Notes under the pieces: model-generated | Database searches by the model: none | Told to the model about the DNA's origin: nothing | The model's input: only the letters and a program-made list of their open reading frames with translations | Translations under genes and position numbers: made by a program | From: Eucommia ulmoides | Taxonomy: Eukaryota > Streptophyta > Magnoliopsida > Garryales > Eucommiaceae | DNA length: 64,000 bases | Assembly: GCA_016647705.1 (NCBI GenBank) | Contig: JAENRU010000170.1 | Span: 1 to 64,000, forward strand | Reading direction: 5' to 3' | In this document: positions 3,651 through 63,729 of the stretch, one piece after another | Layout: every line of letters begins with the position of its first letter | Numbering within the stretch: the stretch's first letter is position 1

Positions 3651-3908
3651 GACTTTTAAAAGGTTTCAAGATTTTAAAAATAATTTTCTAAGGATCATCT
3701 CAAGTATAAAAATATCATTATTATAGAATTTCATAAAGTGATATTTTTATGAGACGACAGTTTTGAGAGAATTTCGCGAAATAAATTGGGCCAAATTGAG
3801 ACATTTGCACCATGGCTGAGAGCGTCGCGCCTGGTTTGTCATACACACGAAACTACAATCAAATTCAAAGCAATCTTCATCACTTGCTCCATCATCTTTC
3901 ACCCAAAA

Positions 3909-4535
3909 ATGTCGGACGGGGTGAATCTTCCCGTAGAGATCGTCGTGGACATTCTATCTCGTCTCCCGGCGAAGTCTCCTGGCCGCTCCAGGTGCGTATC
4001 CAAGTCATGGTGCTCGATGTTATCCCACCCCGAATTCATCAAAACCCACCTGAATCGTAACAGCCACCGTGAGAAAATTGTTCTCATTTCCGACTCTCAC
4101 TCTCTCTATTCCATCGATTTCGACCAACAACCATCGATTAACAACGGTGCGGTAGCAACAAAGCTCAATTTCGATCATTCCGATAACTGGATCGGCGTTG
4201 TGGGGTCTTGCGATGGATTGCTCTTGGTTCTTGACGATGACGGTAATTCGTTCTTGGTAAACCCTACAACACGTGAGCTCAAGAAATTAACAGATTCTCC
4301 TTGCGCTCTCGATCGTTCCGAAAGTTCCAGTACGTATGGCCTCGGCTACGATTCATCCACTGATGATTACAAGATCGTCGTTCTTTCTTTTTGGGATGTT
4401 AGTGATACATTTGTTGATGTTTATGCACTGAGAGCCAACTGTTGGAGGAGACTTCAGAGTTCGCATTATGATGTCGTCCCCGATTTTGCTCCGGCGATTC
4501 TCGTAAATGGATCTCTACAGTGGTTATTGATAGGT
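3909..4535 (+). pseudogene. F-box/FBA-type protein, 3' part lost to a transposon insertion
   Basis: The ATG at 3909 is chosen because an F-box follows at once (residues about 5-45, core 'LPVEIVVDILSRLPAKS' then 'RCVSKSW'). After it comes an F-box-associated region with 'GSCDGLLLV', 'LVNPTTRELKKL', 'GLGYDSSTDDYKIV' and 'NCWRRLQSS', as in CPR1/CPR30-like F-box/kelch proteins that act as substrate receptors of SCF ubiquitin ligases. These are normally about 380-420 residues. Here similarity stops near residue 208 ('LVNGSLQWLLIG') and an unrelated AT-rich tail runs to a stop at 4641-4643, just where the Athila-type nest begins. The missing half was not found downstream in the window. The gene is probably non-functional. 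Confidence 0.75.
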
Positions 4536-4699
4536 TTAAAATACATATCTACTTCTAAATCGAATTTAATAGTTTTCGAGTGTTTTAATAATATTTTATT
4601 GCGTTTTTATTTGTTTTTATGTAAATCAGGCATTGGGACGTAATTAAGTGATAAACAAGCGAAGTGATGAAAAAACGGTGAAAGAAACAAGGTTTTAGT

Positions 4700-4935: not shown

Positions 4936-6939
4936 TGCAGAAATTATCTAATTTTCTAGATATTTTGAAGCCTTCTATTTAAGCCCATTTTCCCCCTATT
5001 TGTGAAAGACGTTCCTAACATTAGATACTTGATCTTAAGCTATTCTTGAGAGCTCAAAGAGGAGACTCAACATTAGGAGTAGAGGAAGCATTTCAGGACC
5101 GATCTTTGGCAACAATGAACCACTCCACTCTAAGATTTGATAGTTCTTCCTTTGTTTTTATCTTTGTAACTTAACGTTTTATTGTGAATGATAATGAATC
5201 CATTTTGTTTTAATATTTTTATGGTTAAGATCATGGTAGGCTAGATAAATATTATCTAGGGATCAATATAGTTAATGTAAATATACGTTTGATTGAATAT
5301 ATGTTTCTTTAACGGTTATTTGTTTAAATGCAATTGTGTTTACCATTTTATTACAATCTTAATATGCTTGTTAAGGTACTAGGATTGGTTTTAAGAAATC
5401 GGGGTTTGACACTCATGAGAGGTAACCTCGAATTTGAACTAGGGTAAATACAACATAACGATCTAATAACCCGGGAGGGAGTTAAAAAGTGTGCAATCCA
5501 TGGGGTTGGGTCAAGACTCATGTGACTAAGGGTTGTATAGACGTCGATGAGGACTTCTTCGTTGACGCGAAGTCACATATTTGCTCACTTTACACTCGGG
5601 AGAGGTAGTGAGCAATTTTAAGATACCAAAATTGTCGGATAGGATAAACACTGTTATTGTTAACTAAACGAAGTTAAATATGTATTAAGTGTAACGACCC
5701 AGTTTTCCAGGGTCGCTACTGCGGTTTCTCCTGTAGAGAATTCTACACAAATATTTTTCCATTTATAAATAAAATAGAATTATTAATAATTTCGATCTGA
5801 TACCACCTGTAACGGCTCAGTTTTCCAAAGCCGTCACGCAGTTTCTCCCCTTAGAGAAATTAACGCTAAAATTGATTGACCGAATTTTCATCTTATAAAT
5901 CCGATAAATTTATTACAAACAATGGCGACAATCACAAATATCAAATTGGTTGATTCAATTTTTACACCGGAAAATAATAAATTCAACTATTACAAATTAA
6001 TTAGAAATTCAACTGAATTCCTGTCGTCGCATTATTTTTAAATACCCAAATAAATTCCTGATGCCGATCAATTTAATGCTAATGTATAAATTTGTAATTT
6101 AATATACAATTATTGCGATAATTATAATTATTGATTTAAATTTTTACGACGATAATAATTATATTCAATTTATCGACTCAGTTTCAATTATATCTCATGT
6201 ACTAATTATTCTGAGTTTTGAAATAAAAACAAGAATAACATGATCATTTTTAAAATAATGAAACGAATTTTTTTCTTTATTTTCCAATTTATTAAAGGGA
6301 ACATTACCGTTTACTCCCAAAAAAAAAATATTTATCGTCTGCTCCTATCATATTTTCCTTGCATCGATCAATCCCATCGGAGACTTTTTCTTGCACCGAT
6401 TACTTCCGTCGGCGGTAAACATAGCACCAAAAATTCCCGTTTCTAAAAACGGTGAGGGGGAGATTACCGAAAATGCCCTCCCGTGTTTCGCGCGAACGAC
6501 GATTACCTTATTTAGCTTTTGAGTTTCCTAATTTTGCAACGGTACATTCATTCAGAAATCAGGACAGGGTGCAGTCGTTAAGTTATTCAAGATTCCAATT
6601 TCAAGAGCGAGAATATTCATCGTCGGCGCAGATTGAGCATTTTACGATCATCAAACTGAAACAGGTAAGAATAAAGGTTTTATCTGCGGTTCGAATTTGT
6701 TTAATTCATACATCAATTGATTTCTACAGATTCGATCAAATGTATGAAAATATATCTTTTCGTCGGAATACTTGTTTTTTTACACACAACTAGCGTAGTC
6801 CATTAAGAAATTCATACTTTGTTTTGGTACATTTCATGTATTTGATTAAATATGCACGCCGAGTTGATGAATCAATATCGATATGTGTTTCTTGTATGCG
6901 AATATGTACGATTTGTATCGATCTAGTTTAGCTGACGTT

Positions 6940-7232
6940 TTTAACATGTTATATTCAACATTTGAACGAGGTTTTTTTTGTTTTTAGACAATGAGTATAT
7001 TTTTCTGATGATGACAGTAATGTTACATTCAATATCAGCATGAGTTTTTTGTTTTTAAACAATAAGTATGTATTTTTTTTATGATAACAATAATGTTACA
7101 TTCAACATTTGAGATGTTGAATATAACATGTTAAACCAGTACCTTTTTTGATATGACAAATAGTGTTACATTCAACATGACCACATTTAAATCAATAATT
7201 AGATGAGGAACAATAATGTTACGTTCAACATC
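6940..7232 (+). repeat. Left subterminal cluster of the TGTTACATTCAACA motif
   Basis: Forward copies or one-mismatch variants lie near 6946, 7020, 7093, 7163 and 7216, with one reverse copy at about 7115. They stand between the TIR region and the transposase start, where transposase or regulator binding sites would be expected. Confidence 0.75.
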
Positions 7233-7314
7233 CACTTAATCATATCATATAGTTGGTTATATTTCACACGAACATAACACAATTAACATTTCATGTGAAT
7301 GATATTTCACAGAA

Positions 7315-9762
7315 ATGGCATCATCCATTGCATTAATGTGCAAATATGAGAATGTGACAATAGTTTTGAGGATGAAAAGCGGCGACAATTTGGTTGAGTT
7401 GAGTGAAAAAATAATAAATAAATGGTCAGATGTATTCATTGCTAAATTTGAGTTGTCATACTCACTCCCGGGACATCCAAAGTGTACGCTTGATGATCAG
7501 AATGATTATGAAGAAATGTTTTTGGTGGTTGCCCACATGAACATTGATTTTTTAGAGGTCTATGTACAAAAAAGGGTGAGTGAATCAAGTGCATCTACTG
7601 GTGCTTCTTCATGTGCAACTTTAACCCCAAACAATTGTGTGAATGGTGACAGCGACGGGAAAATGGATTATATAAGCAGCTATGGTAATATGTTACAGCT
7701 AAGCAATAACAAATTACTACTTTCCTCAAGATGGGCTGATGGTATTCAAGAGGTGGGGCAGAAATTCAGGGGAAGAACAAGTGAATTTCGTATGGCTTTA
7801 AAGAAATTTGATGTAGAAGTTGGGTTTAATTTTTGTTATCTCAGGAATGATAAAACACGTGTGACAGCTGAATGCTCACTATAGGAGGATAGAAAATGCC
7901 TATGGTTCGTGCATGGACGGGTAAAGAGCGAAAATTGTATATTTTATATTCGAACTCTTGTAAAAGAACACACATGTGGAACTGCATTTCACACCAGTAA
8001 GAACAAAAAATTGACTTCAGAAGTTATTTCATCATGTTTGGCTGATGAGGTGCGTTCCAACCCCGAAACTCGCCCGGTTGATGTTGTTGACACTTTTAGA
8101 AAACAATATGGGCTAGAAATAACATACCGGAATGCATGGATGGGGGTAAAAAAAGGCCAGGAATAATGTATTTGGTGATTATTCATCATCCTATGATCAA
8201 TTGAGATGGTACGTTGATAAATGTAAGAAGACAAATCTGGGTAGTCACATTACATTAGAATACAATTTGGAGATAGGACATTTCAAGAAAATATTCATTG
8301 CGTTTCAAGTGTGCATACATGGGTTTAGGTTCAGTCGGCCAATGTTGTTTCTTGACGGCACATTCCTAACTGGTCGTTACAAAGGCAATTTATTAGCGGC
8401 AACAGCGAAGGATGGGAATCAAGGTACGTTTTGTAAGTTTTTGTTTGTTACATGTAAGATTGTTACTTTTCAACATGAAAAATGATGAAAACATTTGATG
8501 TTACATTCAATATCCATTTGTGTTGAATGTAACATCTTATCGATTTTAGTATTTTACATACCATTCAACATCTACAGTATTGAATGTAACATCTTATGGA
8601 TTTTACTCTGTATACAGACATCAATAGAACCCTTGATGTTACATTTTCAACATTCACATATGTTGAATGTAACACCTTACAGATTAACAATTTTCTGTTT
8701 TTCGGATCATGCAGGGATGTTTCCACTTGCATTTGCTATCGTTGATGCAGAGAATGATGATAACTGGACTTAGTTTTTATTGGAACTTAGAAAGGTTGTT
8801 GAGCCAGAGCTTGTCATAACATTCATCTCTGACCGGTATAATGGAATTTTGGAAGGGGTACGTGAAGTGTTTCCACACTGTCATCATGCTTATGTTTGCA
8901 TCATTTGAAGATGAATTTAAAAGCTGCGATGACTAGTACAACTACAGTATTTAAAGATATGATGGTTTAGAAATTGAATGGTTTGGCATATGCACATTCA
9001 TCGGAAATGTTTAAATTTTTATTTGATCAAATGATTAATGAATGGGGTACAAAAGTGCATAACTTCATTCAAGAATTATCACCACAAAAATTTAGTAATA
9101 CGTTTTTTAGAGGTAAGCGATATGGTGAGATGACGTCTAACCTGACGGAGTGCTTCAATTCATGGATAAGTGAATATCGTCATCTACCAGCAATTTTGTT
9201 GATTGACAAAATAAGGATACGATGGATGGACTTATTGACGGAGATGAGAAATGAAGCGAACAAACTACAATCTGAGATCACCCCAAATTGGGAGAATAGG
9301 TTGTATGAATTAATGAATGAAGAACGAACATGGAATATCGGTTCGTCAGGAAATGGAGTATTTGAGGTCCATTCTAACCCTTCCATTCTAGTTGATACTA
9401 AAAGACGCACATGCTCATGTCGACAATGGCAAATAAAAGGATTCCCATGTGTTCATGCTTTTGCAGCTATATATAAGAGTGGATTACCTACATTCAAGTA
9501 CATAAAGGACTATTTCCGAAGCTGTTTTTACCGTGAGACATACTCAAGAGGTATATATGCAATTCCAACAATGGAACGACCAATTTTGGGTGAGAGCAAA
9601 TCAATGATATTGCCTCCATTGTCAAAGAAACAATCAGGATGGCCTAAGAAAGTAAGAATCTCATCTATAAGAGAGGTAAAAGAAAGACAGTGTGGTAGAT
9701 GTGGGAAAATGGGTAGACACAATAGGAAAACATGTAAGGCACCTCTAAATGAAAGATCATGA
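7315..9762 (+). pseudogene. mudrA: MULE (MuDR-type) transposase, decayed
   Basis: The start ATG at 7315 opens a PB1-like N-terminal region of plant MULE transposases. Next comes a zinc-binding DNA-binding domain ('RKCLWFVHGR' ... 'VKEHTCGTAF', 7880-8150), then the MULE DDE core with first Asp in 'LFLDGTFL' (about 8347-8370), second Asp in 'FISDRYNGI' (about 8826-8850) and Glu in 'NLTECFNSW' (about 9137-9163). It ends with a SWIM zinc finger ('CSCRQWQIKGFPCVHAF', 9412-9462) and a CCHC-type knuckle ('CGRCGKMGRHNRKTC', 9691-9735). An intron fits at 8424-8714. Breaks: stops at 7882, 8771 and 8968, and frameshifts near 8150 (in an A run) and 8890. The stops at 8771 and 8968 are TAG where family members have Trp. 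The catalytic residues themselves are still present. Confidence 0.85.
8490..8690. repeat. Inverted pairs of the 14-bp motif inside the transposase intron
   Basis: Three convergent pairs: gatgttacattcaa...ttgaatgtaacatc at 8498-8536, a second at 8560-8593 and a third at 8637-8675. Each pair can fold as a short hairpin. Exons on either side have none. Confidence 0.75.
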
Positions 9763-9939
9763 GGTGGATCTTGATTTTTTTGTCTAATTTTTTTCAATAA
9801 TAATGTTCTATTTGTTATAAAAAAAAAAAAATTTAAAACAATATTAAATAAAAAAACAGTGTATTTTTTGTTCAGATTATGTTTGGTACTAGTGTAACAA
9901 TCAGAATGTGAACTTTGTATAAGAAAGAAATAGTAGGAT

Positions 9940-10165
9940 TCATATTGCATTCAACAACTTGAAACATTTATATTTTGCATTCAACAGTCATAGGATTTTT
10001 TGTCATGCATTCAACTTTTGTCATAGGCTTCTTTGTGTTACATTCAACACTATCATAGGCTTGTTCGTGTTACATTCAACACTGTCATGGGATTTTGTTT
10101 TGTCATTTGTCATATGGTTTTGTGTTACATTCAACACTGTCAAGTTTTTTTGTCACACATTTAAC
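9940..10165 (+). repeat. Motif array between the two MULE genes
   Basis: Forward copies of tgttacattcaacac or tgcattcaaca near 9943, 9976, 10008, 10036, 10068 and 10121, separated by 'tcataggcttctttg'-like spacers. The array lies just before the start of the ULP1-like gene. The same units appear in reverse order and orientation after that gene (14530-14845). Confidence 0.8.
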
Positions 10166-11619
10166 ATTTTTTATCATAGGCTTCTTTGTGTTAACACCAT
10201 TTTTTGTACCGATTCATTTCATTTCCCAAACTTTTCATCTTCTCGGATACGCCAACCAAAAAACACCTTTCTGCTCTGTTCTCTCCCGTCGTTCTCATCC
10301 TCAAACCGGTGAAAAAATGATGCACACAAGAAGAAAAATGGTGACTAAGAATCCTAACACGGCTGATGATCCTGTAAATCTGTCTGATTCAGGTACTGTG
10401 TTCTTCTCTTATTTTTTATAATGATCAACAATGTATGTTCGATGCACTATGTCTAAATTTCAAAACATTATCCATATAGTAATCTATTATCCTTTACATG
10501 CATACGAAAACATATGTTGAAAAGTGCTACTGTGTTGAACGTAACATTCGTTTTATATGTAACATTGTTGTCGTTTTTTGAAAAAAATGTGACATCGCAA
10601 TGATTGTTCAGAAGATGTCCCTTTTCTTCATGCAACGCAACAAATGAACTCATCAACTAAATCTGATGAGATTATAGGTAAGTAATTTTCCTTCTTCCAT
10701 TAACTATTGATTGATCTTCCTACCAAATCATCTATAAATGTGTAGTATGTACCTTTAAACTTGACTGCATTGCATTTGTTTTTTGGTAGTTTCACAGCCA
10801 GAGAAGACTGTGCAACCAATAAAATACCGTTCAAATCTATCGCAATTTTATTCATTGATCAAGTCTATTCATCTTCAACGTGAACACTTTCAAATTCTGC
10901 GGATAATTCCATTTTGGAACACAATAAATGCTCTCATGCGATGGGAAAGTGGGACCAGTTCGTTCCACAAAATAGATTCTTTAATCGCCAATATCATTCG
11001 CTCATATGAACCACATCGAAAGGCATTCAGGTTTGGATCAAAACTGGTTACATTTACAAGCAATGATGTTCAGTTGATTTTTGGATTACCACTAGGGAAG
11101 GAACAACTCCCTGGTCGTTATGCAAAAAAAATGGGTTCTATATTCTTAGCAATGAGGGGCTTGGTTACATTTACAAGCAATTATGTCAAGTTGCTGGTGT
11201 CTCAGATTTCATGAATGTTAAGGATTTAAGAATGATGGCAACTTATAATTGGGCTGAAGCAATTCATTCAAACTTGATGTCATCGATTGCCTCAAGTTAC
11301 CGCAGATCAGAAATCGTTACCGGATGTGTTATCGTATTGCAGGTTATATAATTCTCTTTTTTTTACATTGTTCTCTAGTACACATAATTTTTTCCCTTAT
11401 GCTTTCCGTTCCAATTTTAGTGATGTGGTGCATTTTTTATTCAGTTTTGGTTATCTAAACACACAAATTTGCTCAAAGAAGTCGCAGGACGGCAATATTG
11501 TATTCCACGCTGGGAAAAATGGGACATGATGCAACTTATGGAAGTTGCATTTGGTTTGCAATTGTCTGATAATCAGGTATGCATGTTATATGCAAACATG
11601 TTCCCTGTTATGCAACATC

Positions 11620-11860
11620 CATATGATGTAACATTCAACACCTTGTGGATGTTGAATGTAATATCAAGGATTTTATTGATGTCTGTATGCAAAGTAAAAT
11701 CCATAAGATGTTACATTCAACACTGTGGATGTTGAATGTAACATCAATTGTTCACTTGTTTTATGTATGTAAATACTAAAACCCATAAGATGTTACATTT
11801 AACACCAGTGGATATTGAATGTAACATCAAATGTTCTCATCATTTTCATGTTGAAAGTAA
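11620..11860. repeat. Inverted motif pairs in a ULP1-like gene intron
   Basis: Three pairs (11625-11674, 11706-11746, 11789-11829) have the form gatgttacattcaacac...tgtggatgttgaatgtaacatc, each an imperfect palindrome of about 40 bases within one intron. Confidence 0.8.
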
Positions 11861-13109
11861 CATTCTTACATGTACTCTTGTCTAGATTAAGCAGGCTGAA
11901 ATGAAGGAAACAATCGCCAAAATGCAAATAGGTATTGTGCTTCCAATTCATACTGATATTGAATCGTCTAGTCGGGATGACAAGGACAAGGGCAAGAAGA
12001 AGATCGATTCGTCAGAATTTCCTTTTTTTGACCTCAAGATTTTGCAAGAGTTCACTGCTGATGTTGTTGAATACTGTTGGGGGGGGGGGGGGGGGTCCCA
12101 AAACTTAGCTCAGCTTGTTGAAAGAAATGAAAAACTTGCTGGTGATTATGATCGTTTGAAGGAAGAACGCAAAGAGTTGAAAAAGAAATATAAAAATAAA
12201 ATAAAAAAGTTGAAGAAAGAGATTGAAATTTTAAAAGCCGAATTAACCAATTCAATGGTTGAAACGGAGGTACACGTTGTTACGCAAACGGAAAAGCTTA
12301 TTACTAAAAAAACAGGACTCCAAGAACATCTAGAAGAGGTTGTGATGCATTCTGTTACACAGTCCATTCAGAAAGAGTAAGAATTCAAAGAACAGGTTGT
12401 GGAGATCGCGATGTTTTATAATACGACATTAGAAGAGCGTGATTCTGTTATTGACCAACAAGCATGTGAGATTGCCAAACGTGATCGTGAACTAGTAGTC
12501 AAATGTCTAAATCTGCTTGAGAAAATGGTTACACGAAGAAGTACACGTCAAAAAACACATACAACAACTCCCACATCACTTGTAAAAAATGTTAAAAGCA
12601 GCATGAGGACACGAAAAACTGGTGAGGGGTCGGTCCATGAATATCACATTCCCGCAAAACGATCGAAGAGTCTTATAAAAGCTACTAAGAAGGAAAAACC
12701 AGTGACAACCAATCAGTCAAAGGACACTATAGTATATCAAGGAGAATCCAACAAAATGACTGCTGAGTTGGATGAGGCACGCATGCTGCCTCCCTGAGAT
12801 AGTGTTGTGGCTATGATGTTAACCGAAGACGAATGGAAACTCCTACAGCTTATTTTGCAAATAGAGGGCTATATGTTAGCCTCATTCTTCCATCTTTATT
12901 ATTTTTCATTCTCATTTTATGTGTCGATTGTTATGTGCTGATCCAATGAAAAATGCTTTCTTCTTTATACAATTAAGTGTTTGTTTGGGGCGGAGAATGG
13001 ACTTTTGCACAGGTCTCCTTTGTTGACATTCTTGATCTACAATGGAAAAAACAGCTGACAAATTTTGTGAGTTACACTGTATATTGTTTTTTTGTTTTTT
13101 TTGTTAAAT

Positions 13110-13400
13110 TTGTATGATGTTACATTCAACACTTGTAGATATTGAATGTAACATCAAGTGTTCTCTTCTATAGTGTTTTTGTTAAATTTGTATGATGTTA
13201 TAATTAATACATGTGGATGTTGAATGTAACATTAAAAGTGTTCTCTTATATTTTGTTGCAATAGTAAAAACCATATGATGTTATATTCAAAACACCTGTG
13301 GATGTTGAATGTAATATCAATTGGTGTTTGTTTTATTTATGCACTATTAAATCCGTATGATGTTACATTTAACACGTAGATGTTGAGTATAACATGTATT
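13110..13400. repeat. Second intronic cluster of inverted motif pairs
   Basis: Four pairs (about 13117-13155, 13195-13232, 13277-13318 and 13357-13395) keep the same convergent layout and the same 'tgtggatgttgaatgtaacat' right arm, with 'gtgttctctt' spacers between the first ones. This looks like local duplication of a hairpin unit about 80 bases long. Confidence 0.8.
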
Positions 13401-14524
13401 GGTATTATAAAACTCTGACGCATATTCTAAATGTATTGATGTTTATCTAATCAGGTCATCAATGGTGTTATGGAGCTCTTGTGCCTCGAACAAATGAATA
13501 TGGAAAATTATTTAAAACAGCTTGGCGACATTCTTTCCGATCAATTATTTTTCATAAATAGTACATGTTGGGTGAGTACATTTTACTTCTTTTCCCTTTG
13601 ACTGTTATACATCTACAAAATTTATTCACACATACGTTAAAAATATTTTCTATAGTCATGGATTCTTGAAGGGGATGAACTCACACTTAACAAATTTTTG
13701 AACCCTGAGATAATCCGTGCCTTCACATCTAAATGCCATTATGTTCAATTTCCCATAAACACTGCTGGCCCTACTCCAACAATTGGCCATTGGACCTTAA
13801 CTGTGTGTGATAAGCAAGAGTCAACATGGCGTCATTATAATTCTATGAATCTGAGACGAAGAGGCACAGTTGACCCTTTTTTCGAAAATGCGAAAAAACT
13901 TGTAAGCTTGTATTTTCATAAAATCTTTTTTTTGTTGCTATTAGAACAAACAATAATTGACAGTATTTGTGCACCTATAGATTGCATATGTAGACCAACT
14001 ACTCACCAAAAATAATGTGGAGCATAAGTGGGCTAATCCTTCAGAAAATAAGATATTGAATGTTGGTGATGTACCAGATCAAGGTTCATCAGCGTAAGTA
14101 CCACATATATAACTTAACAATTTAAGTCATACATCCTTCAATGAAAAAAATAAAAAAAACAGTTGTTGAATGTTGGTGATGTTGAATTTTACAGGGTTGA
14201 TTGTGGAGTATGCATCATCCATGTGATGAAGAAAATCTTTAGGAATGAGAAGATCTTTACCGATACGGGCTTGCACGGGTTTCGCATGGAACGTGCTGCT
14301 ATCATTCATCACTTCTTAAATGATGCACCAAGAAGATGGACACTTGACTCATATCACACTCGCACAGCAAATGAACCCAAACCTAACTAAAAAATGGACA
14401 AATGTTATTGAACTTCTGCATTTCCACAATATTTTTTGAAAAACTGCTTTTTGAAGTTACATTTTTTGTATGTAATCCATTGTATATACACAATGTCATA
14501 CACAATTATTGTTGTACTTTTTTT

Positions 14525-15130
14525 ATATGTGTTGAATGTGTTGCCTATGACTGTTGAATGCAAAAAACAAACTTATGACAGTGTTGAATGTAACACAAAG
14601 AAGCCTATGACAAAATTGTTGAATGTGTGACAAAAAACCTGTCACAGTATTGAATGTAACACAGAACCATATGACAAATGCTGAATGTGTGACTAAAAAA
14701 CCTATGACAGTGTTGAATGTAACACAGTCCTAACAAATTGAATGACAAAACAAAAAGCCATGACAGTGTTGAATGTAACACGGGTAAGCCAATGACAATG
14801 TTGAATGTAACACGGGTAAACCTATAACAGTGTTGAATGTAAAGCCGTGTTATATTCAACACGTTAATAGACACGAAAAATAGTATTTTTCAGAAGATAT
14901 TACATTCAGCACGTTAAGAAACGAAAATTGACTTTGTGAATACAAGCCGTGTTACATTCAACACGTTAATAGATACGAAAAATGGTGTTTTTCGGAGAAA
15001 CTAATAAGATGTTACATTCAACATGTTAAGAAAAGTAAATTAACTTTGTGAACAGAAGATGTTACATTCAACACGTTAATAGACACAAATTGACTTTGTG
15101 AACATAAGATGTTACATTCAACATATTAAG
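14525..15130. repeat. Right subterminal motif array of the MULE
   Basis: About 14 copies. From 14530 to 14845 they read in reverse (tgttgaatgtaacac with 'cctatgacag' spacers). From 14847 to 15125 they read forward (gttacattcaacacgttaa with 'acgaaaattgactttgtgaa' spacers). The switch at about 14845 makes the array a large inverted structure. Confidence 0.85.
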
Positions 15131-17039
15131 AAACGCAAATTTACTTCGTAGATCTTACATGTTAGATATTATAGATCATTTTTTGGAAATCAGAACAAAG
15201 ATTTTCATTAGCGTTTGGCATGATTGAGTTGCGCAAATTGAGTTGCGATCAAAAACAAAAACTATTAATAAGGCAAAAGGATGAGCCGCCTTATTAATGA
15301 AGGGTAAAATCATCCAATAAGGACAAAAGTCCTTATCGGTGCATGAAAAAACGGCTGGGTTTATTCGGTAATTACCGGCGCCTTTTGGGAGTAATCAGTG
15401 CACGTCCCTTTATTAAAATCGTATATAAGTTGGGATCTCATTAACATAGGGAAATTAATTATATATGTAATACTTAATAAATCCACTTTTTTAAAACCCT
15501 TTATTAATAAATCAACCAAATTTTAATTTTGTTCCAGTAACCAATAAATACGCATTTCTAGTATTACTAATAGAATAAATTTGAATAGAATAGATCTTTG
15601 AATTTATAACTTATCAATTTATCAAATCGATTTTATAACTGTAAAAAATAAATACAACTATTACAATTTTAAATAGTAATTTTAACTAAAATTTTTGTCT
15701 CCATTTCCCTCTCGCCAGCCCTGCAATCAAACTGTGGGGTTGTGAGTCAACGTTCAGTAGAACTCCAACCCCTCTAATACGTGCAATTAATTAACGCGAC
15801 AAATAAAATATATTGGCATGATTTTCATATAGTCATAATTATTTAATGAAATTTAACAGCTATAATTCACCGACAGTAGTAACGTAAATTACCCAATAGA
15901 CAAATTAAATACAAAATATTAAAAGAGTTAAAAATTCTACCTAAAATCTGAGCTAAAATCTAAACCGGAATATATTTCTTCGCATAAAACATTCAAATAT
16001 ATAAGCTGAATGTTTTTTTGAATATAAACTGAACGAAAAAAAAACTCATATATATTCCTTTACTTATTATTATTATTATTATTATATTAATATGTATCAT
16101 TATGACTTATCAATTCATTTGATGAGTCATAACATTAAAAAAATTATATTAATTATCCTCTTGAAATAAAGAAAATATTGATTATACCCCAAAATTCTTA
16201 AAAGTGAATTTTAAATAACCCAATAATCCCTAAATTTCTAAAATCAATTTAAAATAAATATTTAATTCCCAAAAATTATTAAATATTATTTATACCATAA
16301 ATTAGCAAAACATTCCCAAAAATATTAAATTTTTATATAAAATAATATTTTCAAGAATCTAAATTTTCGGGGTATTACAATCTTTCCACCTTAAATAAAT
16401 TTCGTCCTCGAAATTTCGTTCAAAACAATAATACTTTAGAATCACACCGTATGGTCATGTTAGGTACACTCGATTCTAGAACAATTATTCTCTATGTAGG
16501 GTCATATAACCAAAAGTCACCTATAATTCACATTCGTCAACATTCATTCCATTCATGGCTACATTCTCATTCGTAGTGGCCTACGTTATATCCAATAACA
16601 TACGGACATGATGCACTTTGATTGGTAACACCTAGCACAGATAACTAATTGCCAAAGAATCTTATGTTTCTAAATGCTTTCATTGCACTACTCTGATAAA
16701 AATAGCAATAAATACAATATATCATTAAAATATCATGGTAGTCTCACTAAATTGGATCTATCTCAATTCCCATAAGTCTACGACTTCAATAATTTCTCAC
16801 TTGGCATGACTTTTTAAATCTACTGTCATATTCCATAACCATCATTTACCAATTCCGTCCGACATTTCAAGCCAATCATATTCGCAACCAATAGTATAGC
16901 TAATAGATAGCCCAAATTCCTAATGGACTATCCCGTAAGACTAAAAATAACTATCTCCAATTTTCACATTAAATTTTCAATAATCCCATAAACTTTTTCA
17001 TAAAATCAAACAATTCAAATTTCAAGTAAAAAAAAAAAA

Positions 17040-58979: not shown

Positions 58980-59425
58980 ACAATGTTAAAAAAAAAATAG
59001 TTTCCTCAATAACATGCGTCATAGTCAGTGAATGTTATATTCAATATCCAAACAAAGACACGAGAGTTATAATTTTGTGCTTCGGAAGACATAGCCTAAT
59101 TTACAAGCAATTCATGTTATATGTAACTGCAACATACAAATATAATAATATATTATTACGTCTTGTAACGCATTCTATGTTGAATATAACTCGGATCTCT
59201 ATCCAATACTAAAAAAAATAAAAAAAATATGTTATCTTTAAAGTAAAAAAATTAAAAAAAAAATAGGGACAAATGTTATATTGTGTATTTTACGGAAGAC
59301 ATATACTCTACTTTACAAACAGTTCATGTTATATGTAACATTAACAGACAAATGTAACAACATATTTTTTGTCTTGAAATACATATCATGTTGAATATAA
59401 CAGGATTTATATGCAACGCTCCAAG
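58980..59425. repeat. Two direct 205-bp units with motif-like words
   Basis: 59073-59210 and 59280-59420 share 'cggaagacata', 'catgttatatgtaac' and 'atgttgaatataac'. The words tgttatattcaata and tgttgaatataac are close to the MULE motif TGTTACATTCAACA. Confidence 0.75.
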
Positions 59426-61906: not shown

Positions 61907-63703
61907 ATGGAAGAACCACCGCCGCCGGAGAAGCCAGTAAAAACGTACCAAATAACAGCTTCTTCAATCTCCTACACCAAGTCCACCGGCGGCGCCTCCA
62001 CCATTTCACCCACCTTCTTCCTCTTCAAACCATGCACCACCACACCACCCACCTACATTCTCAAAGACGTCTCTTTCACCGCCTACCCTTCCGAAATCCT
62101 CGCCATCGTCGGACCCAGCGGCGCCGGAAAATCCACCCTCCTCGACATTCTCTCCGCCAGAACTTCTCCGACCGCCGGCGCCCTCCTCCTCAATTCCTCC
62201 CCTCTCAGCCCTTCTTCCTTCCGCAAACTCTCCGCCTACGTCCCCCAGCACGACGCCTGTCTTCCCCTCCTCACCGTCTCTGAGACCTTCACTTTCGCCG
62301 CCGTCCTCCTCCACCCCAAAACCCCCCGGATTTCCGCCGTCGTGGAGGCTCTACTCGCCGAACTCAGACTCACCCATGTTGCAGAAACTCGTCTCGCCGG
62401 AAAACTCTCCGGCGGAGAACGGCGACGCATCTCCATTGGCCTCAGCCTCCTTCACGACCCCGGTGTACTCCTCCTCGACGAACCCACCTCCGGTCTCGAT
62501 AGCGATTCAGCTCTCAACGTCATGCAAACACTCCGATCAATCACAATCTCCCGTCGCTGGACTGTAATTCTATCGATTCACCAACCCAGCTTCAAAATCC
62601 TCTCCATGATCGACCGGATTCTCTTGATTTCGAAAGGAACCGTCGTCCACCACGGAACTCTGCCGTCGCTTCAAGAATTCCTCCTCTCCAATGGCTTCAC
62701 CGTTCCTCCGCAGCTCAATCCTTTAGAATACGCCATGGAAATACTAACCCAGCTCCAAAACAAAGCAAATGCTTCTCCTCCGTCGCTGGCACCCCCACCA
62801 CCGCCGATTCCACCGCCGCCGGAAACCACTGTAAGAGAGACAAGACAAAGGAGCTCAAGACTCCATGAAATCTCCACCCTCTACAGCCGATTCTGGAAAA
62901 TCATATACAGAACGAAGCAATTACTTTTAACAAACACCTTGCAGGCAATCGGAGTGGGGCTTGTTCTCGGCACGATTTACATCAATGTCGGATTCGATAA
63001 GACCGGAATCGAGAAGCGATTAGGCTTATTCGCCTTCACCCTCACCTTCCTCCTCTCCTCCACCACCGAAACCCTCCCCATCTTCATCAACGAACGACCT
63101 ATTCTCATCAGAGAAACCTCCAGCGGGGTCTACCGATTATCCTCGTACCTCATCGCCAACACCCTCGTCTTCCTCCCCTACTTGCTCGTCGTCGCCGTCG
63201 TCTTCTCCGTCTCCGTCTACTTCCTCGTCGGCCTCTGCGGCACCTGGCAGGCGTTCGGCTACTTCGTTCTCGTGATCTGGGTCATCGTCCTGATGGCCAA
63301 CTCCTTCGTCCTGTTCTTGAGCTCCGTCGCCCCCAACTACATCGCCGGAACGTCTCTGGTCACCGTGCTTCTCGCCGGATTCTTCCTCTTCTCCGGCTAC
63401 TTCATATCCAGAGACAGCATCCCAAAATTCTGGGTGTTCATGCACTATGTTTCCATGTACAAGTACGCGCTCGACGCGCTTCTGATCAACGAATATTCAT
63501 GTCTGGTGACGACGTGCCTGATGTGGTACGACGAGAAGGAGAAGACGGCGTGTATGGTCACCGGAGGCGACTTTCTGGCGAAGAGGGGACTCCATGAGAG
63601 GGAGAGGTGGAAGAACATCTATGTATTGATTGGATTCTTTGTGTTTTATCGATTGCTTTGTTTGATTGTTTTGATTAGAAGGGTTTCAAGATCCAGGAAA
63701 TGA
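61907..63703 (+). CDS. ABCG (WBC-type) half-transporter, ABCG4/8/10-like
   Basis: Single-exon frame, 598 residues. An in-frame ATG at 61832 precedes a (CT)n tract that would code Leu-Ser repeats; the ATG at 61907 has a 'gccaccatgg' context and is preferred. The nucleotide-binding domain is first: Walker A 'GPSGAGKST' (69-77), Q-loop 'YVPQHD' (111-116), signature 'LSGGERRR' (167-174), Walker B 'VLLLDEP' (187-193) and H-loop 'SIHQPS' (223-228). A Pro-rich linker (about 305-330) precedes the membrane domain, which has about six hydrophobic segments and ends 'LIVLIRRVSRSRK'. Members pump small organic molecules across membranes as dimers. Substrates of the close relatives are not well settled. 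All catalytic residues are intact. Confidence 0.92.
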   Translation: MEEPPPPEKPVKTYQITASSISYTKSTGGASTISPTFFLFKPCTTTPPTYILKDVSFTAYPSEILAIVGPSGAGKSTLLDILSARTSPTAGALLLNSSPLSPSSFRKLSAYVPQHDACLPLLTVSETFTFAAVLLHPKTPRISAVVEALLAELRLTHVAETRLAGKLSGGERRRISIGLSLLHDPGVLLLDEPTSGLDSDSALNVMQTLRSITISRRWTVILSIHQPSFKILSMIDRILLISKGTVVHHGTLPSLQEFLLSNGFTVPPQLNPLEYAMEILTQLQNKANASPPSLAPPPPPIPPPPETTVRETRQRSSRLHEISTLYSRFWKIIYRTKQLLLTNTLQAIGVGLVLGTIYINVGFDKTGIEKRLGLFAFTLTFLLSSTTETLPIFINERPILIRETSSGVYRLSSYLIANTLVFLPYLLVVAVVFSVSVYFLVGLCGTWQAFGYFVLVIWVIVLMANSFVLFLSSVAPNYIAGTSLVTVLLAGFFLFSGYFISRDSIPKFWVFMHYVSMYKYALDALLINEYSCLVTTCLMWYDEKEKTACMVTGGDFLAKRGLHERERWKNIYVLIGFFVFYRLLCLIVLIRRVSRSRK

Positions 63704-63729
63704 AAAAATTCATGCATTGTGTTTTGATT

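Follow-up and report, generated by a model that had tools for sequence, protein, structure and literature searches.

The window analysed here, a stretch of 64,000 nucleotides from Eucommia ulmoides (contig JAENRU010000170.1, positions 1 to 64,000), contains a Mutator-like element (MULE) with two genes, a transposase and a second gene called gene 2 in the following. The non-coding parts of the element carry dense arrays of a 14-bp motif, TGTTACATTCAACA. This motif is probably the cis-acting address of an anti-silencing system like that of the VANC proteins of Arabidopsis, read by the gene-2 protein of the family. The element is a MULE by its MuDR-type transposase domains and its 9-bp target duplication, a feature given as 8-11 bp for MULEs (PMC6446971). 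The initial annotation had placed a MULE with motif arrays at 6940..15130, which was correct in content but too narrow in span, as the element extends from 6297 to 15408. Its parts are as follows.

6297..15408, plus strand: whole MULE, 9,112 bp, delimited by target duplications and GGGA...TTACTCCCAAAA ends
6288..6296, no strand: left target site duplication, 9 bp, TTTATTAAA, same letters as 15409-15417
15409..15417, no strand: right target site duplication, 9 bp, TTTATTAAA
6297..6322, plus strand: left terminal inverted repeat, 26 bp, 7 mismatches against the right end
15383..15408, minus strand: right terminal inverted repeat, 26 bp
6947..7230, no strand: 5' array, 6 motif copies
7315..8425, plus strand: transposase exon 1, broken by one stop and one frameshift; MuDR-type DNA-binding domain
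8499..8674, no strand: transposase-intron array with 4 motif copies
8714..9762, plus strand: transposase exon 2, initial part disrupted by stops, reading frame open from 8971; SWIM zinc finger
9943..10136, plus strand: gene-to-gene array, 5 motif copies in a single orientation
10317..14390, plus strand: gene 2, about 9 exons with borders set by inspection, broken (stop, frameshift); product a candidate for binding the motif
11627..11862, no strand: gene-2 intron 4 array, 7 motif copies, chiefly as inverted pairs
13118..13394, no strand: gene-2 intron 5 array, 7 motif copies, chiefly as inverted pairs
14552..15123, no strand: 3' array, 13 motif copies, 7 minus in a row and then 6 plus

What kind of MULE is this? 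Exon 1 of the transposase contains a MuDR-type DNA-binding domain (PF03108, E 9.5e-7) and a weak match to the MULE domain (E 0.011), and exon 2 contains a SWIM zinc finger (E 6.9e-8). The nearest outside relatives of the transposase are flowering-plant proteins; the eight best share 43-46% identity with it, and seven of these are named (Vaccinium, Camellia, Rhododendron). The ends of the element, 26 bp with 7 mismatches, fit the VANDAL group, whose terminal inverted repeats are described as absent or as short and degenerate (PMC6446971). Note that the copy in the window is itself broken, in both the transposase and gene 2.

The element contains 19 exact copies of TGTTACATTCAACA; the count rises to 36 when one mismatch is allowed and to 44 when two are. 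The whole window has 50 matches at the last threshold while 1.53 are expected from shuffled sequence, and none of 100 shuffles reached 50, the highest being 6. All 44 element sites are in non-coding parts and none is in the exons, which take up about 4.66 kb (51% of the element) in a gene model drawn by inspection; the binomial P for this absence is 2e-14, on the footing of independent sites, which array sites are not. These figures, the comparison with shuffled sequence included, bear out the estimate of about 40 copies confined to non-coding DNA in the initial annotation. The places named there (both ends, the transposase intron, the gene-to-gene gap and two gene-2 introns) all carry the motif, and two further gene-2 introns, with one copy each, have to be added. 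The introns have chiefly inverted pairs and the element ends chiefly same-direction runs. Among the one-step variants of the motif, C-to-T or G-to-A changes make up 13 of 17 in the window copy (1.6 expected by equal chance), 56 of 176 in all 12 window-type copies (16.8 expected) and 16 of 37 in the palindrome clade described below (3.5 expected). The excess in the window copy is of the kind that methylated, silenced DNA would show as it decays.

Is the arrangement a trait of the family? When transposase exon 2 was searched against the genome (391 contigs, 946.7 Mb), 146 matches were obtained, including the window's own (145 scored, of 3,734 candidates), and the identity of the others ranged from 89% down to 64%. 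Two samples were taken: L010-L038 are 29 close copies, each represented by 3.8 kb, and L039-L054 are 16 copies at greater distance, each represented by 8-10 kb and each with a tblastn match to transposase exon 1. The 16 distant copies and the window make up 17 full copies, so the full-length sample is one of distant copies, and there are 46 copies in total including the 29 partial ones. The full copies contain 551 sites of their own motif type (at most two mismatches), and none of the 551 falls in mapped coding sequence. Here an overlap was counted when at least half of a site fell in coding sequence mapped by tblastn (50.2 of 167.9 kb), a mask that consists only of matches to the window exons and may miss fast-evolving exon parts. 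In all 17 full copies the motif, either as such or shifted, is the commonest complexity-filtered 14-base word, with shifted words counted on both strands for the palindrome copies, and the top 9-base words are portions of the motif.

Five of the 16 distant copies (L039, L040, L041, L042 and L049) carry the perfect palindrome TGTTACATGTAACA in place of TGTTACATTCAACA, from which it differs at two positions. They have 68 exact sites of TGTTACATGTAACA against 1 exact site of TGTTACATTCAACA (in L041), and 7 sites of TGTTACATTCAACA at one mismatch, 4 of them in L041. In the remaining 41 of the 46 copies TGTTACATTCAACA predominates, with no exact TGTTACATGTAACA. On the transposase tree the five copies form one clade (5 of 46) with support 100/100 from a bootstrap that is not fully settled, and the motif label switches once, on a midpoint root that leaves the order of the two states unset. 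Since TGTTACATGTAACA is the palindrome of TGTTACA, TGTTACATTCAACA can be read as TGTTACA followed by TGTTGAA in inverted orientation. The initial annotation had not noticed that the motif is such a dyad of half-sites. L042 of this clade has a 9-bp target duplication, TTTAATTAT. Letters of the palindrome are also contained in tobacco small RNAs, called miRNAs in that literature; this was set aside.

The half-sites, if taken as units, predicted a third word, TGTTGAATTCAACA, the palindrome of TGTTGAA, and it was then found in the genome, at 1,634 exact sites; the reversed word, which is a palindrome too, has 1. Three pairings, ACA/ACA, ACA/GAA (that of the window) and GAA/GAA, occur as separate arrays in one genome. 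In each of three clusters of TGTTGAATTCAACA (L055-L057) there are three exact sites, and the other words are absent in exact form; two of the clusters contain, in addition, one site within one mismatch of TGTTACATTCAACA. No exact TGTTGAATTCAACA occurs in the 46 copies (29 of them partial), and the L055-L057 arrays, seen in stretches of 0.8-0.9 kb, have no match to the transposase or gene 2. L056 and L057 resemble copies of one repeat. A modular code, in which a dimeric gene-2 protein would read 7-bp half-sites that are either TGTTACA or TGTTGAA, is a possibility that we put forward tentatively on these words.

Both family words are abundant. With at most one mismatch, TGTTACATTCAACA has 42,213 sites in the genome against 722 for its reversed word and TGTTACATGTAACA has 17,699 against 257, the counts of the two words overlapping in some one-step intermediates. 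For TGTTACATNNAACA there are 36,754 matches against 275, with both strands pooled and palindromes counted twice; the first 100 of the matches listed represent, by hand count, 79 distinct sites, of which 36 are window-type, 21 are palindromes and 22 have other letters. One carrier of the motif is non-autonomous, a coding-free derivative of about 1.3 kb at 1379-1382 kb of contig 1 (C1; L002 and L008, at 1384-2680 of L002), which has 16 motif sites and a tblastn match to neither MULE gene. Its ends differ from the right and left ends of the window element at 6 and 5 of 26 positions; its 9-bp target duplication, AAAAAATAA, is A-rich and hence weaker evidence.

Could such a motif serve another purpose? 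In other plant transposons, subterminal repeats serve end recognition or the regulation of transposition. A binding site of the transposase or its cofactor with such a role would suit the high density of the arrays near both ends (6 and 13 sites), a transposase that combines a MuDR DNA-binding domain with a SWIM finger, and a clade difference in the motif that tracks the transposase tree. However, 25 of the 44 sites lie in introns and the gene-to-gene gap, where an end signal has no evident use, and the 26-bp terminal repeats of the window element are without the motif at up to two mismatches. This role is unlikely.

Another candidate is the site of a host transcription factor, which the element would use as an enhancer. 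A high copy number on both strands fits an enhancer, and the palindrome resembles the site of a host dimer. The 129 exact sites in the first 15.8 Mb of contig 1 group by 3-kb linking into 40 clusters. Only 9 sites are solitary, so that exact sites are clustered in this stretch; neither an even spread there nor sites in mapped exons, which would have told against the initial annotation, were seen. Of the 31 multi-site clusters, 27 contain one motif type and 4 are mixed, while label shuffles of the same clusters gave a mean of 17.4 mixed and a minimum of 11 over 2000. An unchanging host protein does not account for sister words that differ at two positions and are mostly kept apart in this way, which makes the host factor improbable.

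Least credible, and quite improbable, are functionless minisatellites that slippage and unequal crossing over would have expanded where no coding constraint acts: array size does vary among close copies (an intron array is doubled in L025, and L029 has 11 same-direction sites in a row) and any repeat is expected to be absent from exons, but the units are alike over about 14-16 bases only with nearly random flanks, and one word recurs on both strands in separate parts of the element and differs almost throughout in the sister clade. The information per column is 1.0-2.0 bits within the motif, values inflated by the choice of sites by their core, 0.35-0.5 one base out and at most 0.31 further away; this drop indicates that the flanks are not repeated units. 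Among 30 close copies the motif columns are also slightly better conserved than the flanks, 0.963 versus 0.918 in the gene-to-gene gap and 0.962 versus 0.950 in the intron.

There is a further question of concern, which protein would read the motif as an address for anti-silencing? The initial annotation had left the choice between the second gene and the transposase, and our analysis favours gene 2. Joined as a read-through, gene-2 exons 6-9 match the Peptidase_C48/Ulp1 domain (PF02902, 25.6 bits with a cut-off of 20.7, E 1.2e-5); the Ulp1 region of the window is at 13656-14390. In the N-terminal part of one palindrome-clade copy there is a DUF1985 match (E 2.3e-7, 31.3 bits, cut-off 35.1), and two other relatives have weak ones below the cut-off (E 0.005 and 0.018). 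Between the DUF1985-like and Ulp1 parts, reading of the open reading frames gives a coiled coil and a basic block that are alike in both clades. This combination, Ulp1 with a coiled coil in gene 2 and a weak DUF1985 match among relatives, corresponds to the reported make-up of VANC and KIU proteins. DUF287 and NCBIfam gave no match for gene 2, and a search of solved structures gave five matches, the best with E 0.11, all to unrelated proteins. By hand count, gene 2 is present in 41 of the 45 other copies. It is in tandem with the transposase in 27 close copies and in L040-L042 and L049, and opposite to it in L029, L044-L048, L050-L052 and L054. The direction of gene 2 was thus reversed at least once without loss of the motif, which is therefore independent of gene order. 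A long G run at about 12080-12096 in gene-2 exon 5 of the window is a likely source of frameshift.

The principle of such self-recognition is already known from the VANDALs of Arabidopsis. VANC proteins there carry DUF1985, and VANC21 binds a short motif arrayed in the non-coding DNA of its own family and lowers its methylation (PMC5735166). In VANDAL21 with VANC21 and VANDAL6 with VANC6, the family-specific motifs are dense mainly in introns, gaps and ends; they sit in tandem repeats that grow and shrink, and related families have different motifs (PMC5735166). The Eucommia element is alike in being a MULE with an additional protein and a dense, family-specific short motif in its non-coding DNA, in arrays of varying size, and in having a sister family with a different motif (TGTTACATTCAACA versus TGTTACATGTAACA). 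It differs in that its motif is a dyad of half-sites and in that gene 2, whose motif binding is putative, matches Ulp1 but not DUF287. With the KIU VANDALs and other Ulp1-bearing eudicot MULEs the element has in common that its second gene bears Ulp1; a review states that Ulp1-bearing VANCs (KIU, Kaonashi) recognise their own motifs (PMC13317346). It is this analogy with VANC21 and the KIU proteins that points to gene 2 as a motif reader protecting its family. TGTTACATTCAACA was not found in a literature search, which left out Sasaki et al. 2022. As far as checked, the new points are the length of the motif, its construction as a dyad, the placement of a half-site difference on a tree and the predicted third word.

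How might the system work? Gene 2, with its DUF1985-like part, coiled coil, basic block and Ulp1 domain, would encode a protein that binds the 14-bp site through its two 7-bp half-sites, probably as a dimer, as the dyad suggests. The dense non-coding arrays would recruit this protein along the element and along coding-free derivatives, and once recruited it would counter DNA methylation, so that the genes are expressed and the family is mobile. The sister clades, which differ in one half-site (TGTTACA or TGTTGAA), would each be served by their own protein. The VANDAL/VANC-like self-recognition of the initial annotation is thus the best reading of the exon avoidance, the clade difference, the coding-free carrier and the gene with Ulp1 and DUF1985-like parts; motif binding by a gene-2 dimer, and a loss of methylation upon binding, we infer by comparison.

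The spacing of the motifs was considered for the same reading. Helical spacing of motifs is reportedly described for the VANC system by Sasaki et al. 2022 (EMBO J). The distances of all motif pairs have no peak near 10.5 bp. Among minus-plus neighbours (n=50) a distance of 10.4 bp is preferred (0 of 400 jitters); this favours helical phasing, though the copies are related and not independent. Plus-minus neighbours (n=85, likewise from related copies) bunch at 22-25 bp and score strongly because they share this narrow distance. A hairpin function for the inverted pairs was set aside, as the end arrays mostly run one way.

Several points weigh against the gene-2 protein as reader of an anti-silencing address. 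The absence from exons could by itself stem from coding constraint. The motif has 14 bp, while the known VANC motifs, YAGTATTAY and AGTTGTCC/AGTTGTAC, have 8-9 bp, and that of VANC21 is in one orientation (PMC5735166) whereas the introns here carry inverted pairs, with only the end arrays mostly one-way. There is no 10.5-bp rule for same-direction neighbours (jitter P 0.275, n=202), and the result for the palindrome clade is not clear (P 0.0775, n=88). The word TGTTGAATTCAACA is without an established tie to MULEs. As to gene 2, single Ulp1 exons match no domain (0 of 2 from the window, 0 of 4 from relatives), and DUF1985 is matched in 3 of 8 N-terminal pieces, all under the Pfam cut-off, with no match in the L040 piece or the window's own read-through. 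In Ulp1 segments of 12 copies, counted by hand, the His is retained in 11 and the Cys in 9, but Tyr replaces the Cys in 3, and Asn stands in all 12 at what we take to be the place of the expected Asp, so that protease activity is doubtful or changed. Finally, no protein relative of gene 2 was found at E <=0.001, either with the window read-through (8000 candidates) or with the L048 pieces (987 candidates).

Outside the element, the window has 6 extra matches to TGTTACATTCAACA at 57.8-63.9 kb, one with one mismatch and five with two, and further arrays with relatives of both TGTTACATTCAACA and TGTTACATGTAACA at 59033-59402. Another palindromic word, AGTTACATGTAACT, occurs with its variants at 57.6-57.8 and 60.9-61.7 kb. 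Genome-wide it has 1,666 exact sites, and its reversed word has 13; as 38 of 50 sites among the matches listed stand alone, it was not counted as further evidence. By reading alone, an F-box-like reading frame is named at 3753-4643, left of the region, and an ABC-transporter-like gene without evident introns at 61908-63704, to the right.

Why would such a family matter? How anti-silencing proteins find their own family, and how their specificity shifts without loss of function, is an open question; Hosaka et al. 2017 leave the specificity region and the mechanism for later work (PMC5735166). In the Eucommia genome, sister families with words two bases apart in one half of a dyad are present together in many copies, with the gene of the candidate reader adjacent. 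If the half-site code is true, new self-recognition systems would evolve half by half, through a change or a heterodimerisation. A tool for sequence-addressed demethylation that has a site as long as 14 bp would be useful. The results suggest that each family may tag its own DNA, so that its own protein finds it and prevents it from being switched off.

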